From: Pseudobdellovibrionaceae bacterium
Lineage (GTDB): Bacteria; Bdellovibrionota; Bdellovibrionia; Bdellovibrionales; Bdellovibrionaceae
Reading direction: 5' to 3'
Length of the DNA: 64,000 nucleotides
Assembly (NCBI GenBank): GCA_019637875.1
Contig: JAHBUW010000003.1
Coordinates: forward strand, 248,001 to 312,000
The notes beneath the pieces were generated by a model. It was not told the origin of the DNA, did not search any database, and saw only the letters and a program-made list of their open reading frames with translations. Below are positions 17,299 to 58,515 of the stretch, one piece after another (position 1 is the stretch's first letter; each line of letters starts with the position of its first letter). Position numbers and translations under genes: made by a program.

Positions 17299-19416
17299 CT
17301 AGAATCGGCCGAGTCGCCCCAGGATCTCTTCGCGCTTTTTCGTGGGCACCGCTTGGTACTCCAGGAAATCCATCGCGAAAGAGGCACGCCCCTGCGACAA
17401 CGAGCGCAGATCCGTCGCGTAACCGAAAAGCCCTTCGAGCGGCACCTCGGCCTGGATGACCTGGGTTCCCTGACTTTTCACGTTGATCGAGTTCACGCGA
17501 CCGCGACGCGAATTCACATCGCCGACGACGCCGCCGACAAAACTGTCCGGCGAAGTGACCTCGACCTTGAAGATCGGCTCGAGCAACTGAACTTGCGTCT
17601 TCTTCACGGCATCCCGGAGCGCCAGCGAAGCCGCCGCCTTGAACGCCATTTCCGACGCCGACTTTTCGTCGCGCATCGTGGCCGAAAGCAGGGTGATCTT
17701 CATGTCGATCATCGGATACGAAGCCAAAGGTCCGACCTCGGCCGTTTCGCGCGCGCCCGACTCGATCGCCTTCGTGATCGCCAGCGGCAGCGGAGGCGTC
17801 GCCTTCGGAATCAGGTTCACCAGCTGGATGCCCGCGCCCCGCTCAAGCCCCTCGACCTTCACGCGCACCGCCGCGAACTGCTCTTCGCCGGCGATCAGAC
17901 GTTCGTAAACGTGCTCGGCGTCCGCCGATCCCTGAATCGCCTCGCGGTACGAGACCTGGGGTTTACCGACGTTCGCTTGGACTTTGTGTTCACGCAGCAG
18001 ACGGTCCACCAGAATCTCGAGGTGAAGCTCGCCCATGCCCGAGAGCAAAGTTTGCCCCGTCTCGGGATCCATGCGCAGACGCGCCGAGGGATCTTCCTTC
18101 ACCAGCTTTTCGAGCCCCGCCATCATTTTATCTTGATCGGCGGAGCTTTTCGCCTCGACCGCGACCGAAATCACGGGCTCGGGCGGGACGATGGACTCCA
18201 GGACGACGTTCTTTTTCGATTCGCAAAGGGTGTCGCCCGTTCCCGTGAACTTCAAGCCGACGATCGCGCCGATATCCCCGGCCTTCAGCTCGGTGATTTC
18301 TTGGCGCGAGTTCGCGTGCATGCGGACGATCTTCTGCACGCGCTCTTTTTTCTCGGTCCGGGGGTTATAAACCTGATCGCCGACTTTCATCGTGCCCGAG
18401 TACACGCGCACGTAAGTCAGCGAGCCCGCGAACGGATCGGTCGCGATCTTGAACGCCAGGCCCACCGCCGGGTCGTCGAAGTTCGTTTTGCAGACGATCT
18501 CTTTTTCGGGTTTTTCCGGATCGTGACCGACGACATCCGGTACGTCCAGGGGCGAGGGCAGATAGTCGATGACCGCATCGAGCAAGGGCTGCACGCCTTT
18601 GTTTTTGAAGGCCGCCCCGCAAAGAACCGGGAACACCTTCATGGCGAGCACGCCTTTGCGAAGGGCCCCCTTCAGCTCTTCGGGCGTTACGTCTTTGCCC
18701 TCAATGAGCTTTTCCATGATGGCATCGTCGAAATCGCCGATACGCTCGATGGTCTTCGCGCGGGTCAGCGCGACCTCTTCCGCCATGTCGGCAGGAATGG
18801 GGCCGCGGGTGAACTTCTCGCCTTTGTCTTTGTCGGATGATTCCCAAATCAAGGCTTCGTTCGCGATCAGATCCACCAGACCGACAAAAGCATCCTCGGA
18901 GCCGATCGGCATTTGGATCGGCAGGGGCTCGGCGTTGAGTTTGTCTTTGATCGTGCCCACCGACATCCAGAAATCGGCGCCGACCCGGTCCATCTTGTTG
19001 ATGAAGCAGATCCGCGGCACTTTGTGTTTGTCGCCCTGACGCCAGACGGTTTCCGACTGGGGCTCGACGCCGTTCACGCCGTCAAAAACGGCGACGGCGC
19101 CATCGAGCACGCGCAGCGAACGCTCGACTTCGATCGTGAAGTCCACGTGCCCGGGAGTATCGATGACGTTGATCCGGTGCTCACGCCATTGGAGAGTCGT
19201 CGCGGCCGCGGTGATCGTGATCCCGCGCTCCTGCTCTTGCTCCATCCAGTCCATGGTGGCCGCGCCATCATGCACTTCCCCAATTTTGTGGGATTTGCCG
19301 GAGTAATAAAGAATACGCTCGGTCGTCGTGGTCTTACCGGCATCAATATGCGCCATGATCCCGATATTCCGGGTCCAACGCAGCTCTTCAACAGTTTGCG
19401 GATCAGCAGCAGACAT
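17299..19416 (-). CDS. fusA: Elongation factor G
   Basis: A 705-residue ribosomal translocase GTPase. The start at 19416 ([19 protein letters not shown]) was chosen over an upstream ATG by family alignment; its ribosome-binding site (CAGG) is weak. G1 [13 protein letters not shown]3 DTPGH and G4 NKMD are intact, as is the C-terminal [15 protein letters not shown] of true EF-G. It is separated from rpsG by an unusual 419-base palindrome-rich spacer, so coupling within the str operon may be altered. Confidence 0.98.
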
Positions 19417-19519
19417 AGCCTGCGAATGTAAGCGCCAGAACCTAAAATGTCGAGACGGAAAGCCCCTCTTCTCCCAGCCCCCACACCAAAAGATCGGCAC
19501 AAGCGGCCCCAATCCCAGC

Positions 19520-19737
19520 CTTGATTTTCCTTCACCCTCACCCGAGAGGATGAGCCTTCGGATTTCCCGTCAGTTTGCTTTTTCTTCTTTTGGCGGGACC
19601 TCCGCCACGCCAGGATGGCGTATTCATTGGCGGCGAGGCCTGGAGGGCCGTGTCCCGCCAAAAGAAGAGAAAGGAAAGTGATGGGAAATCCGAAGGCCAC
19701 CCGGAGCCCCTCCCCACGAGGGCGAAGGAAAACCAAG
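19520..19737. repeat. Giant nested inverted repeat between rpsG and fusA
   Basis: A 218-base imperfect palindrome. Three nested arm pairs: 19520-19539 with 19718-19737 (18 of 20), 19555-19572 with 19679-19696 (17 of 18), and 19578-19599 with 19652-19673 (21 of 22, around TTTTGGCGGGAC). The centre holds shorter pairs (CTCC/GGAG, CCAGG/CCTGG). More inverted pairs follow at 19754-19768 with 19789-19803 and a perfect 16-base palindrome at 19818-19833. The spacer 19417-19835 holds no gene. Architecture resembles an ERIC-like or MITE-like element; family unknown. Confidence 0.85.
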
Positions 19738-19835
19738 CGCCCCAAACGACAACGGCCCCTTCACGTCAATCCCCAGAGAACCCGGGAGCTGACGAGAAGA
19801 GGCCGGTGCCTGTTCTCGGATTTCTAGAAATCCAA

Positions 19836-20309
19836 TTACCAGTTGTAGTGCGAGAAAGCCTTGTTCGCTTCCGCCATACGGTGAACATCTTCGCGCTTTT
19901 TGATCGCGTTACCGCGATTGTTGTAAGCGTCGAGGATTTCGCCGGCCAGGCGCTTCGAGAAGTCTTTTTCGCCACGAGCACGCGAGTACTCGATCAGCCA
20001 ACGCATCGACAGCGCCAGACGGCGCGAGGGACGAACGTCAACGGGAACTTGGTAAGTCGCACCACCAACGCGGCGGCTGCGGACTTCCAGCGAGGGCTTA
20101 CAGTTCTCAAGAGCTTTCTTGAGGACCGCAACGGGCTCTTCGCCAGCCACTTTGTCTTTCAGTTCATCCAATGCTCCGTAGAACATCTTCTGAGCGATCG
20201 CCTTGCGACCTTGCAGCATCATCTTGTTGATGAATTTCGCGATCACGATGTCTTTGTAGACGGGATCTGGAATGACTTCGCGTTTAAATGTCTTTTTACG
20301 ACGTGACAT
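19836..20309 (-). CDS. rpsG: 30S ribosomal protein S7
   Basis: A 157-residue head-assembly initiator. The start at 20309 ([16 protein letters not shown]) is preceded by GGAG; a longer frame to 20372 is not family-like. Seen: [16 protein letters not shown] and [17 protein letters not shown] perfect palindrome (GGATTTCTAGAAATCC) lies three bases past its stop. Confidence 0.98.
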
Positions 20310-50594: not shown

Positions 50595-50640
50595 AGGGGA
50601 GGATTCTGGCGAAATTCGCCCGGAAAGTCCATCAGTTGCG

Positions 50641-50743
50641 GCAAGGGCGTCTAAAGGTCAGGGACGAGGCGCGAGGAGGAGGCGTACCCCCCGCGGTACG
50701 TCGACGACGAGCAACGAAGGCCCTGGCCTTCAGACGCCCTTGC
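50641..50743. repeat. Dispersed palindromic element, copy B (ntrY-ntrX spacer)
   Basis: Arms 50641-50663 and 50721-50743 are complementary at 21 of 23 positions (outer 12 bases, GCAAGGGCGTCT, perfect). They enclose a core (50665-50719) that on the minus strand reads CTTCGTTGCTCGTCGTCGAC, GTACC-loop-GGTACGCC and CGCGCCTCG, matching copy A at 31221-31276. One arm includes the last codons and stop of ntrY. Expected to fold into a long hairpin in the ntrYX mRNA. Confidence 0.82.
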
Positions 50744-53000
50744 CACCGACCTTCCAGGCTTCGGTTTGCGGGACCGGGAGCTCGATGATCATGCGGGTGC
50801 CCTTGGGCTCATTCGCCAGCGCGCGGATAAAACCGCTATGGTCCTCGACAATACGTTTCACGATGGGGAGCCCCAAGCCCGTCCCGCCCTCTTTCGTGCT
50901 GAAATAGGGTTCAAACATCCGGGAGCGCTGTGGTGCAGGAATCCCACACCCCGTGTCCGCCACGGTGAGTCTTAGGATGCGGAGTTCGGGATCGAACTTG
51001 GTCTCGATGCGGATTTTCTTCACGGGCTCTGAACTGACGGCCGCCACCGCGTTGTCGATGAGGTTCACGAGCACGCGCCGGATCTGGTCCGGATCCAGAC
51101 GGAAAACGGGCAGCTCGGGCTCGCGGTCGAACTCGAACGTCACGCCCGCGTGGGCGCTGGTGAAAAGCGGGAGGGTCTCTTCGATGAGCTGATTCAGGTT
51201 CACCGGCACGGGCCGCGCCTGCGGCAGGCGCGCGAACTGGGTGAACTCGTTCACCAGATTTTTCAGATCATCGGTTTGGCGCACGATCATCGTCGTGCAC
51301 TCTTTGAACGCGGGGTCCGTGATCTGCTCGCCGAATTTGCGTTGCAGACGTTCGGCGGAAAGTTTGATCGGCGTGAGCGGGTTCTTGATCTCGTGCGCGA
51401 TACGTTTCGCGACCTCGGACCACGCGGCCGCGCGCTGCGCGCTTTGGATCGGCGACATATCGTCGAAGACGAGGACCTTCCCGATCTCGTCGTCGTTGTC
51501 GCTTTTCAAAATCGACAGGGTCATCAGAAGCGGGATGCTTTCGCCGTTCACGTTGACCGAAAGCTCCTTCTGGATGGTTTCAGTCCGGTGCTCCTGCATG
51601 GTCTTCAGCAGATCCGCGAACAGTCGGAAATACTCGAGCGTCAGGAGCTCCCGCACCGAGCGGCCGATGTATTTGGCCGGCTCGAGCTTCAACAGCTCGC
51701 CCGCGCGTTTGTTGAAGGTCGTGATGATCCCGGTCTTGTCCACCGAGATGACGCCCGCGCTGACCGAGCCGAGCACGACCTCGATGTAGGCGGTGTGCTC
51801 GTCGAGCTCCAGCAGCGTCGTGCGCAGGCTTTGGTTGGCCGCGCGGACCTCTTGCTCGGACTTCGAAAGGTTCTGGGTCATCTGGTTGAAGCTTTCGACG
51901 AGGCTCGCGATCTCTTCCGAGCCGGTGCGCACCTCGACGGGGGTGTAGTCCCCGCCCGCGATGCGTTTCGTCGCGCGCCCCAGCTGCACGAGGGGGATCG
52001 AGAGCTGCTTCGCCAAGTGGAACCCGAACCACGTCGCCGCCAGCAGGACCACGAGGGTCATCAAGAAGAGGATGATCAGGTACATCGACTTCAGCGGGTA
52101 CTCGAGAGGGTTCACGTCGCGGAACTCTTCGTAGGCCGACGAGATGTCGTTCATCTTCGAGGTCAGGCTGAGCGGCACGAAGCTCGAGACGATCACGGCG
52201 CCGCGGTTCTGCCCCTCTTCCACGGGGACGATGACCCGCACGAGGTTCCCGTCGCCGAACTGGTGGATGGTGCTGCCGTCGACCTGCGACTTGATCCCTT
52301 TTTGCAGAAACTCGAGCGAGGCCTTGGGGATCATCGGGATCGTCTCGTCGTCCGAGATCGCGATCTCGCGCTGACCGAAGAGGTTCGGATAGTACTCGAC
52401 CGCGTCCAGCGCGTAGAGCTTCTGCAGTCCCGTCAGGCGGCGCTTGATGCCCGCGCGGTCCATCCGTTTGATGTCGTCGGCGATCTGGTGGGCGAAGTGG
52501 TAATTCCGTTTCTTCGCGTTGAAGTAGTAGGCGTTCGTCACCTCGAGCGAGCTTTTCAGGACCCCGCCCATCTTGGCCGAGAACCACTTATCGAAGCTCG
52601 AGTTGATGTAATAAACCGAAGTGACGAAGATCAGGAGCGTCGGCACCACGCTGAAGGCCACGAAGGCCGCGATCAGCTTCGCTTTCAGCGAAGAGCCGAA
52701 GATCTTCCCTCGCCGCTCGACGAAGACCTTCACGACGTTGCGGAAGATCAGGAAGAGAAGCAGCAGCAGCAGGATGATGTTGAAGTTGACCAGGCCGAAG
52801 AAAAAGATCGAGTGGACGAACGGCAACTGGTGGCTGATCTGGAACAGGCGGATTTCGAACCACGTCAGCCCGAAAAACAGCGCGGCCAAAAAGAAAATCA
52901 CCAGCACTTCGCGGCGGCGCTTTCTGATCTCGTCGGTCCAGTTCGCGGCCGTCTCGGGCCCGGGACCCGATTCAATTTCGGGATCGTTCAACTTCGACAT
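50730..53000 (-). CDS. NtrY-like membrane sensor kinase
   Basis: A 756-residue kinase. Membrane helices at about 31-50, 63-87, 108-132 and 306-328, with a periplasmic loop of roughly 170 residues. Then HAMP (about 328-380), PAS (about 400-500), dimerisation domain with His536 (RIAHEIKNPLTPIKLSAERL) and ATPase domain (NLIDNAVAAV, DTGCGIP, GGTGLGLPIV). This is the NtrY layout; in other proteobacteria NtrYX responds to nitrogen or redox state. The partner regulator follows 135 bases later across a large hairpin. Confidence 0.9.
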   Translation of the reverse strand: MSKLNDPEIESGPGPETAANWTDEIRKRRREVLVIFFLAALFFGLTWFEIRLFQISHQLPFVHSIFFFGLVNFNIILLLLLLFLIFRNVVKVFVERRGKIFGSSLKAKLIAAFVAFSVVPTLLIFVTSVYYINSSFDKWFSAKMGGVLKSSLEVTNAYYFNAKKRNYHFAHQIADDIKRMDRAGIKRRLTGLQKLYALDAVEYYPNLFGQREIAISDDETIPMIPKASLEFLQKGIKSQVDGSTIHQFGDGNLVRVIVPVEEGQNRGAVIVSSFVPLSLTSKMNDISSAYEEFRDVNPLEYPLKSMYLIILFLMTLVVLLAATWFGFHLAKQLSIPLVQLGRATKRIAGGDYTPVEVRTGSEEIASLVESFNQMTQNLSKSEQEVRAANQSLRTTLLELDEHTAYIEVVLGSVSAGVISVDKTGIITTFNKRAGELLKLEPAKYIGRSVRELLTLEYFRLFADLLKTMQEHRTETIQKELSVNVNGESIPLLMTLSILKSDNDDEIGKVLVFDDMSPIQSAQRAAAWSEVAKRIAHEIKNPLTPIKLSAERLQRKFGEQITDPAFKECTTMIVRQTDDLKNLVNEFTQFARLPQARPVPVNLNQLIEETLPLFTSAHAGVTFEFDREPELPVFRLDPDQIRRVLVNLIDNAVAAVSSEPVKKIRIETKFDPELRILRLTVADTGCGIPAPQRSRMFEPYFSTKEGGTGLGLPIVKRIVEDHSGFIRALANEPKGTRMIIELPVPQTEAWKVGGKGV

Positions 53001-58422: not shown

Positions 58423-58429
58423 GCGGCTT

Positions 58430-58515
58430 AGGGTACCATCTACCCTGCGTAGCAAGGTAGATGGTACCCTACCGATTCCGCGGGGTACCACGTACCGCAC
58501 GCGGTACGTGGTACC
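58430..58515. repeat. Twin perfect GGTACC hairpins between clpB and the dehydrogenase gene
   Basis: Hairpin 1: arms 58430-58444 and 58456-58470 (AGGGTACCATCTACC and complement, 11-base loop). Hairpin 2: arms 58484-58498 and 58501-58515 (GGTACCACGTACCGC and complement, 2-base spacer). Both have perfect 15-bp stems and a shared GGTACCA--TACC arm pattern. No T-run follows on either strand. Confidence 0.85.

Follow-up and report, generated by a model that had tools for sequence, protein, structure and literature searches.

The str operon of this genome raises the question of how a large palindrome came to lie in the 419-bp spacer between rpsG (S7) and fusA (EF-G), and whether it is an inserted mobile element or an RNA structure that uncouples EF-G from S7 synthesis, the two readings offered by the first-pass annotation. 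The features of the locus, given in coordinates of the window (the whole stretch of 64,000 nucleotides analyzed), are listed in Table 1. The sense strand of the spacer folds with −226 kcal/mol compared with −168 ± 6 kcal/mol for shuffled sequences (z −9.96; 0 of 100 shuffles as good), and the palindrome, correctly placed inside the str operon with a length of 218 bp, is a real structure. Inverted-repeat search yielded inner arms of 46 nt (91% complementary), which exceed in length every other high-identity inverted repeat of the 16 pairs listed for the window, and outer arms of 20 nt (90%). The long arm pairs described before are indeed nested, but there are two blocks instead of three, as the 46-nt arm had been split in two, and the structured tip had been left unresolved. 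The two smaller palindromes noted towards the rpsG stop codon reappear in the fold; the larger one shows no sign of belonging to the palindromic element.

Table 1. Features of the rpsG-fusA region and the insertion sequence related to the young repeat copies
Feature	Position	Strand	Remark
rpsG (S7)	19836..20309	-	gene; stop at 19836
fusA (EF-G)	17299..19416	-	gene; start at 19416
rpsG-fusA intergenic spacer, 419 bp	19417..19835	-	
Palindromic element, older copy	19520..19737	-	218 bp visible palindrome
Inner arm, fusA side	19554..19599		partner 19652-19697; inverted-repeat search
Inner arm, rpsG side	19652..19697		partner 19554-19599; inverted-repeat search
Outer arm, fusA side	19520..19539		partner 19718-19737; inverted-repeat search
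Outer arm, rpsG side	19718..19737		partner 19520-19539; inverted-repeat search
Conserved tip	19595..19656	-	model R1 match 19587-19661, 89.5 bits, E 7e-23
Tip hairpin 1	19637..19649	-	GGCC-CTCCA-GGCC
Tip hairpin 2	19608..19620	-	CGCC-ATCCT-GGCG
Small separate hairpin, in the stretch from the element to rpsG	19748..19810 (about)	-	fold
Short hairpin immediately after rpsG stop	19816..19835	-	TTGGATTTCTAGAAATCC; fold
Sigma-70-like promoter motif, just upstream of fusA	19425..19453	-	TCGACA-17-TACATT
IS1-like insertion sequence, 966 bp	G000:C8:27957-28922 (= L252:1501-2466)		end-pattern search

Short spacers had been taken as the norm in str operons, and in relatives whose rpsG is about 70–89% identical the rpsG-fusA spacer mostly measures 0–140 bp, with three at 274–644 bp. 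The palindromic hairpin is absent from this spacer in all relatives compared. Two relatives (L100 and L110) have spacers of 644 and 548 bp, respectively, in which an apparent small gene follows a terminator-like hairpin in place of the palindrome. Among named relatives, rpsG matched only at a distance (about 60% identity), which provided no close outgroup. The whole 419-bp spacer gave no match in plasmids or phages.

With the 231-bp window element as query, 11 further places were found in the same genome, all via the central tip of 60–90 bp. Plain sequence search had tied the window copy to other copies before use was made of R1, a tip covariance model built from 12 sequences including the window copy. 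R1 detected 14 strong copies in this genome (E ≤ 2e-15, up to 96 bits) and one doubtful one, each family copy being a near-perfect hairpin of 100–300 bp. Because of its conserved tip (R1 score in Table 1) and its architecture, with 91% complementary arms, the window palindrome is a member of a dispersed mobile hairpin repeat family. A BLASTN-type check for other copies in the same genome, as suggested in the first-pass annotation, is thereby answered with about 14 clear copies. For eight of the 14, a predicted gene end, as placed by a crude gene caller, is no more than 10 bp away, and several lie between convergent genes.

R1 matches were present in 33 of 66 genomes of the taxonomic family. 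With R2, a broader model constructed from 87 matches, hits were obtained in 57 of the 291 genomes that sampled the phylum, and in distant examples the arms still comprise tens of perfectly paired bases. In an outside comparison, the 34 genomes that had been reached via other loci gave only three weak matches, each of them single (best E 2.5e-5). The phylum carrying the repeat is probably Bdellovibrionota; the distribution over it is patchy and widespread, and the family is old. Searches of the literature library used found no earlier description of these tip-hairpins, which are apparently previously undescribed. A replication-strand bias of about 17:11, counted by eye in a few complete genomes, was not significant. 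Among the copies elsewhere, an inverted pair lies upstream of a gene resembling a KdsC-type phosphatase (L161, 1451-1949), two distant phylum members (L275, L276) carry tip-hairpins directly downstream of apparent tRNA genes, and a variant tip occurs in two direct copies close together (L279).

Mobility is seen in copies of this genome, seven of which bear GAAACTG-type terminal inverted repeats on both sides. Exact 9-bp target duplications flank five of them (L135, L136, L138, L139, and L147; TATCGAGTA, AAACTAGAA, AAATAAAAA, TGAAAGGCT, and CTTCATTTC), whereas none was found for L137 and L140. Searching the genome for the end pattern revealed an insertion sequence of 966 bp that shares its ends with these young copies (GAAACTGCCCC) and has a 9-bp target duplication (AATTTCTAA). 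It contains a single frame of 306 amino acids and no tip; the encoded transposase matches NCBIfam transpos_IS1 (NF033558, E 2e-11) with 44 bits, below the curated cut-off of 100. At one repeat arm, the outermost 27 bp share 96% identity with the end of the insertion sequence (E 5e-5). Two further end-like matches (L133 and L134) were attributed to chance. Both the young copies and the IS1-like element are located at gene ends, the latter at a gene's stop codon. The young subfamily hence combines terminal inverted repeats and a duplication of fixed length with a partner autonomous element. Judged by these sequence features it is MITE-like, and since the insertion sequence has the same ends and duplication length, it is probably moved in trans by the IS1-like transposase.

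The window copy has neither GAAACTG ends, the terminal repeats of the insertion sequence, nor a 9-bp duplication, the longest direct repeats between its flanks being 7 bp, and copies in most other genomes likewise have ends other than the GAAACTG type. It has either lost these ends and duplications or never had them, and because of their absence its own insertion history is one that we infer. The suggestion of a mobile palindromic element is nevertheless borne out by the other copies, the 9-bp duplications, the terminal repeats, and the same-ended IS1-like element. Of the proposed likeness to ERIC or MITEs, the latter holds for the young subfamily, while ERIC falls away for want of its primer sites. 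We consider it probable that an old copy of the mobile hairpin repeat landed between rpsG and fusA.

Short, palindromic, intergenic, and transcribed, the element bears a general resemblance to known repeat families (ERIC, REP/REPIN, Correia/NEMIS, BOX/RUP). Membership in one of them is nonetheless extremely improbable, as ERIC primer sites are absent (0 matches to the ERIC1R/ERIC2 motifs with ≤3 mismatches), no Rfam family matched above its gathering score, and the duplications are 9 bp and not TA. ERIC elements are also palindromic and intergenic, on a 127-bp scale, but have no sequence relation to the tip-hairpins. REP/REPIN sequences share the palindromic intergenic character, small hairpins, and the occurrence of inverted pairs (here in the rplL-rpoB spacer); they differ in that the present family has a three-part tip of ~62 nt with arms of 35–140 bp, and that its 9-bp duplications, products of staggered cutting, imply a transposase of the DDE type. 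QMITE2 of Coxiella burnetii is a bacterial MITE (review PMC10969869). MITEs of this type resemble the present elements in being about 200 bp long, non-coding, intergenic, and multi-copy, in forming a very stable hairpin, in having terminal inverted repeats and 7–9 bp direct repeats, and in lacking a transposase of their own. Unlike these, the whole element is palindromic here and has a folded tip conserved phylum-wide, and the arms differ between subfamilies yet remain complementary. To the IS1 family, the resident insertion sequence is linked by the 9-bp target duplication and the similarity of its transposase (NF033558, E 2e-11); its length of 966 bp, the single 306-aa frame scoring under the curated cut-off, and its ends GAAACTGCCCC without a tip set it apart.

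The conserved part of the family is the tip of ~62 nt, in which a bulged stem bears two small hairpins whose loops read (N)TC(C/G)(N). On the R1 strand, its first part reads GGRC-RC-[GSSC NTCCN GSSC]-TC- and its second part [6-bp stem, unpaired GNATAC-like stretch around CSSC ATC(C/G)N GSSG]-A-GGYCC. In 84 distinct tips, all 20 pairs vary on both sides and 98.2% of cells are standard pairs, a share reached by 0 of 500 shuffles, in an alignment that was fitted to the covariance model and leans towards the structure. There are 416 cells with double changes and only about 11 with G-U, and the loop bases are nearly invariant. Most copies have arms unrelated to those of the others, yet within each copy the two arms are complementary. 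The pairing of tip and arms is unlike that of RNA stems, because wobble pairs are rare in both and arm mismatches by a single transition are rarer than transversions. The arms do not appear to be captured spacers, as those of seven other copies in this genome match only the partner arm, family members, and ends of the insertion sequence. Nothing was found in phages with a set of 875 nt of concatenated arms, nor in IMG/VR with two tip patterns. CsrA-type binding to GGA loops on the reverse strand was weakened as a candidate by CGA in 7 and 18 of 87 copies at the two loops.

Against a purely DNA-based account, arm mismatches counted in cluster representatives are C-rich on the R1 strand (A-C 103 vs. 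G-T 52, C-T 96 vs. G-A 49, C-C 34 vs. G-G 9), which points either to one single strand (RNA or ssDNA) selected for stability or to biased hairpin-mismatch repair. The asymmetry would suit a trans-acting structured RNA transcribed from the strand opposite R1, in which G-U, G-A, and G-G mismatches would be tolerated and whose genes would have spread by transposition; the excess of A-C over G-T in every gene context and the nearly invariant loops fit as well. Such an RNA is unlikely, however, since the arms are not conserved and so offer no shared promoter, the paucity of single-transition mismatches departs from RNA stems, and the same asymmetry would result if mismatches in a DNA hairpin were repaired with a bias. 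In addition, none of the eight attack-phase sRNAs reported for B. bacteriovorus overlaps the two tip positions listed in the genome presumed to be that of HD100.

Orthologous copies were available in a neighboring genus, where an inverted pair of tip-hairpins in the rplL-rpoB spacer is common to five species (L152, L155, L163, L164, L165), with the two hairpins about 300 bp apart and in opposite tip orientations. The rplL-rpoB spacers of this genus are long, about 290–1300 bp. In MAFFT alignments of the orthologous sites, compensated changes affect 30 of 49 arm pairs in hairpin 2 and 20 of 36 in hairpin 1; one-sided steps are very scarce, and the tip hardly varies. Orthologous tips are also more alike than paralogous ones. 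The tip is thus under constraint beyond palindromy, because it is conserved at rplL-rpoB without conservation of the arms and is closer between orthologues than between paralogues. Both observations speak against a functionless relic whose palindromy is kept only by template-switch mutation and whose tips are alike only through recent copying. Template switching does homogenize the arms of inverted repeats (PMC8604942), and the element is dispensable in relatives; on balance, we regard a relic as rather unlikely.

The rplL-rpoB hairpins bear equally on the idea of a cis-acting RNA in the str mRNA, an attenuator or RNase III site uncoupling EF-G from S7. Their presence at another ribosomal-operon junction, the strong RNA fold, and the position in the str operon agree with such a role. 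The hairpin is, however, missing at rpsG-fusA in relatives, most copies lie at unrelated genes, some of them between convergent genes, the opposite tip orientations of the rplL-rpoB pair are not like a strand-specific cis RNA, G-U pairs are almost absent, and the sense strand lacks a T-tract, which makes a cis-acting RNA decidedly unlikely. On sequence grounds, covariation restricted to Watson-Crick pairs, together with the occurrence of both orientations, favors a palindrome maintained at the DNA level over a cis-acting RNA switch.

A mobile DNA hairpin that has landed in the operon may still affect its expression. No GC-rich stem followed by a T-run was found on the sense strand between 19300 and 20450, and as this strand has no T-tract, there is no intrinsic terminator. 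The promoter-like site before fusA is weak and close to chance (1 found vs. 0.5 expected). Co-transcribed within the str operon, the 218-nt hairpin would be a likely target of RNase III or a plausible site of other processing, and it would hold the S7 and EF-G coding regions of the message physically apart; fusA would then rely on read-through or on its own promoter. An effect of the palindrome on EF-G expression is what we infer from this.

As for the family as a whole, the young subfamily would be moved in trans by the IS1-like transposase in the manner of a MITE. The tip would be the recognized part, kept by purifying selection, and the complementarity of the arms would be preserved on the level of DNA, through template-switch homogenization and/or selection on an extruded DNA hairpin. 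Tentatively, and with somewhat less than even confidence, we propose phylum-wide mobile DNA hairpins whose conserved double-hairpin tip is recognized as folded DNA, whose arms may vary freely in sequence but are re-matched continually, and which are retained in ribosomal-operon junctions. If this is true, the tip would be recognized by the transposase or a host factor, and the retaining junctions would be rplL-rpoB in one genus and rpsG-fusA here. The family offers an unusually clean case of a long DNA palindrome that stays paired during sequence turnover with only the tip conserved. Two questions thereby become testable: which factor recognizes the tip in its folded form, and whether selection or template-switch copying holds bacterial palindromes together. 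The copies at the two junctions are natural examples of a repeat that rewires an operon.

Further repeats were observed in the window. A second, unrelated palindromic repeat is present in two copies, at 50640-50744 (+) and about 31244 (-), with a core like GACGAGGCGCGAGGAGGAGGCGTACCC..GGTACGTCGACGACGAGCAACGAAG; this 27-nt core differs by three substitutions between the copies. At 58429-58471, a near-perfect 20-bp hairpin with a 3-nt loop is probably an ordinary terminator.
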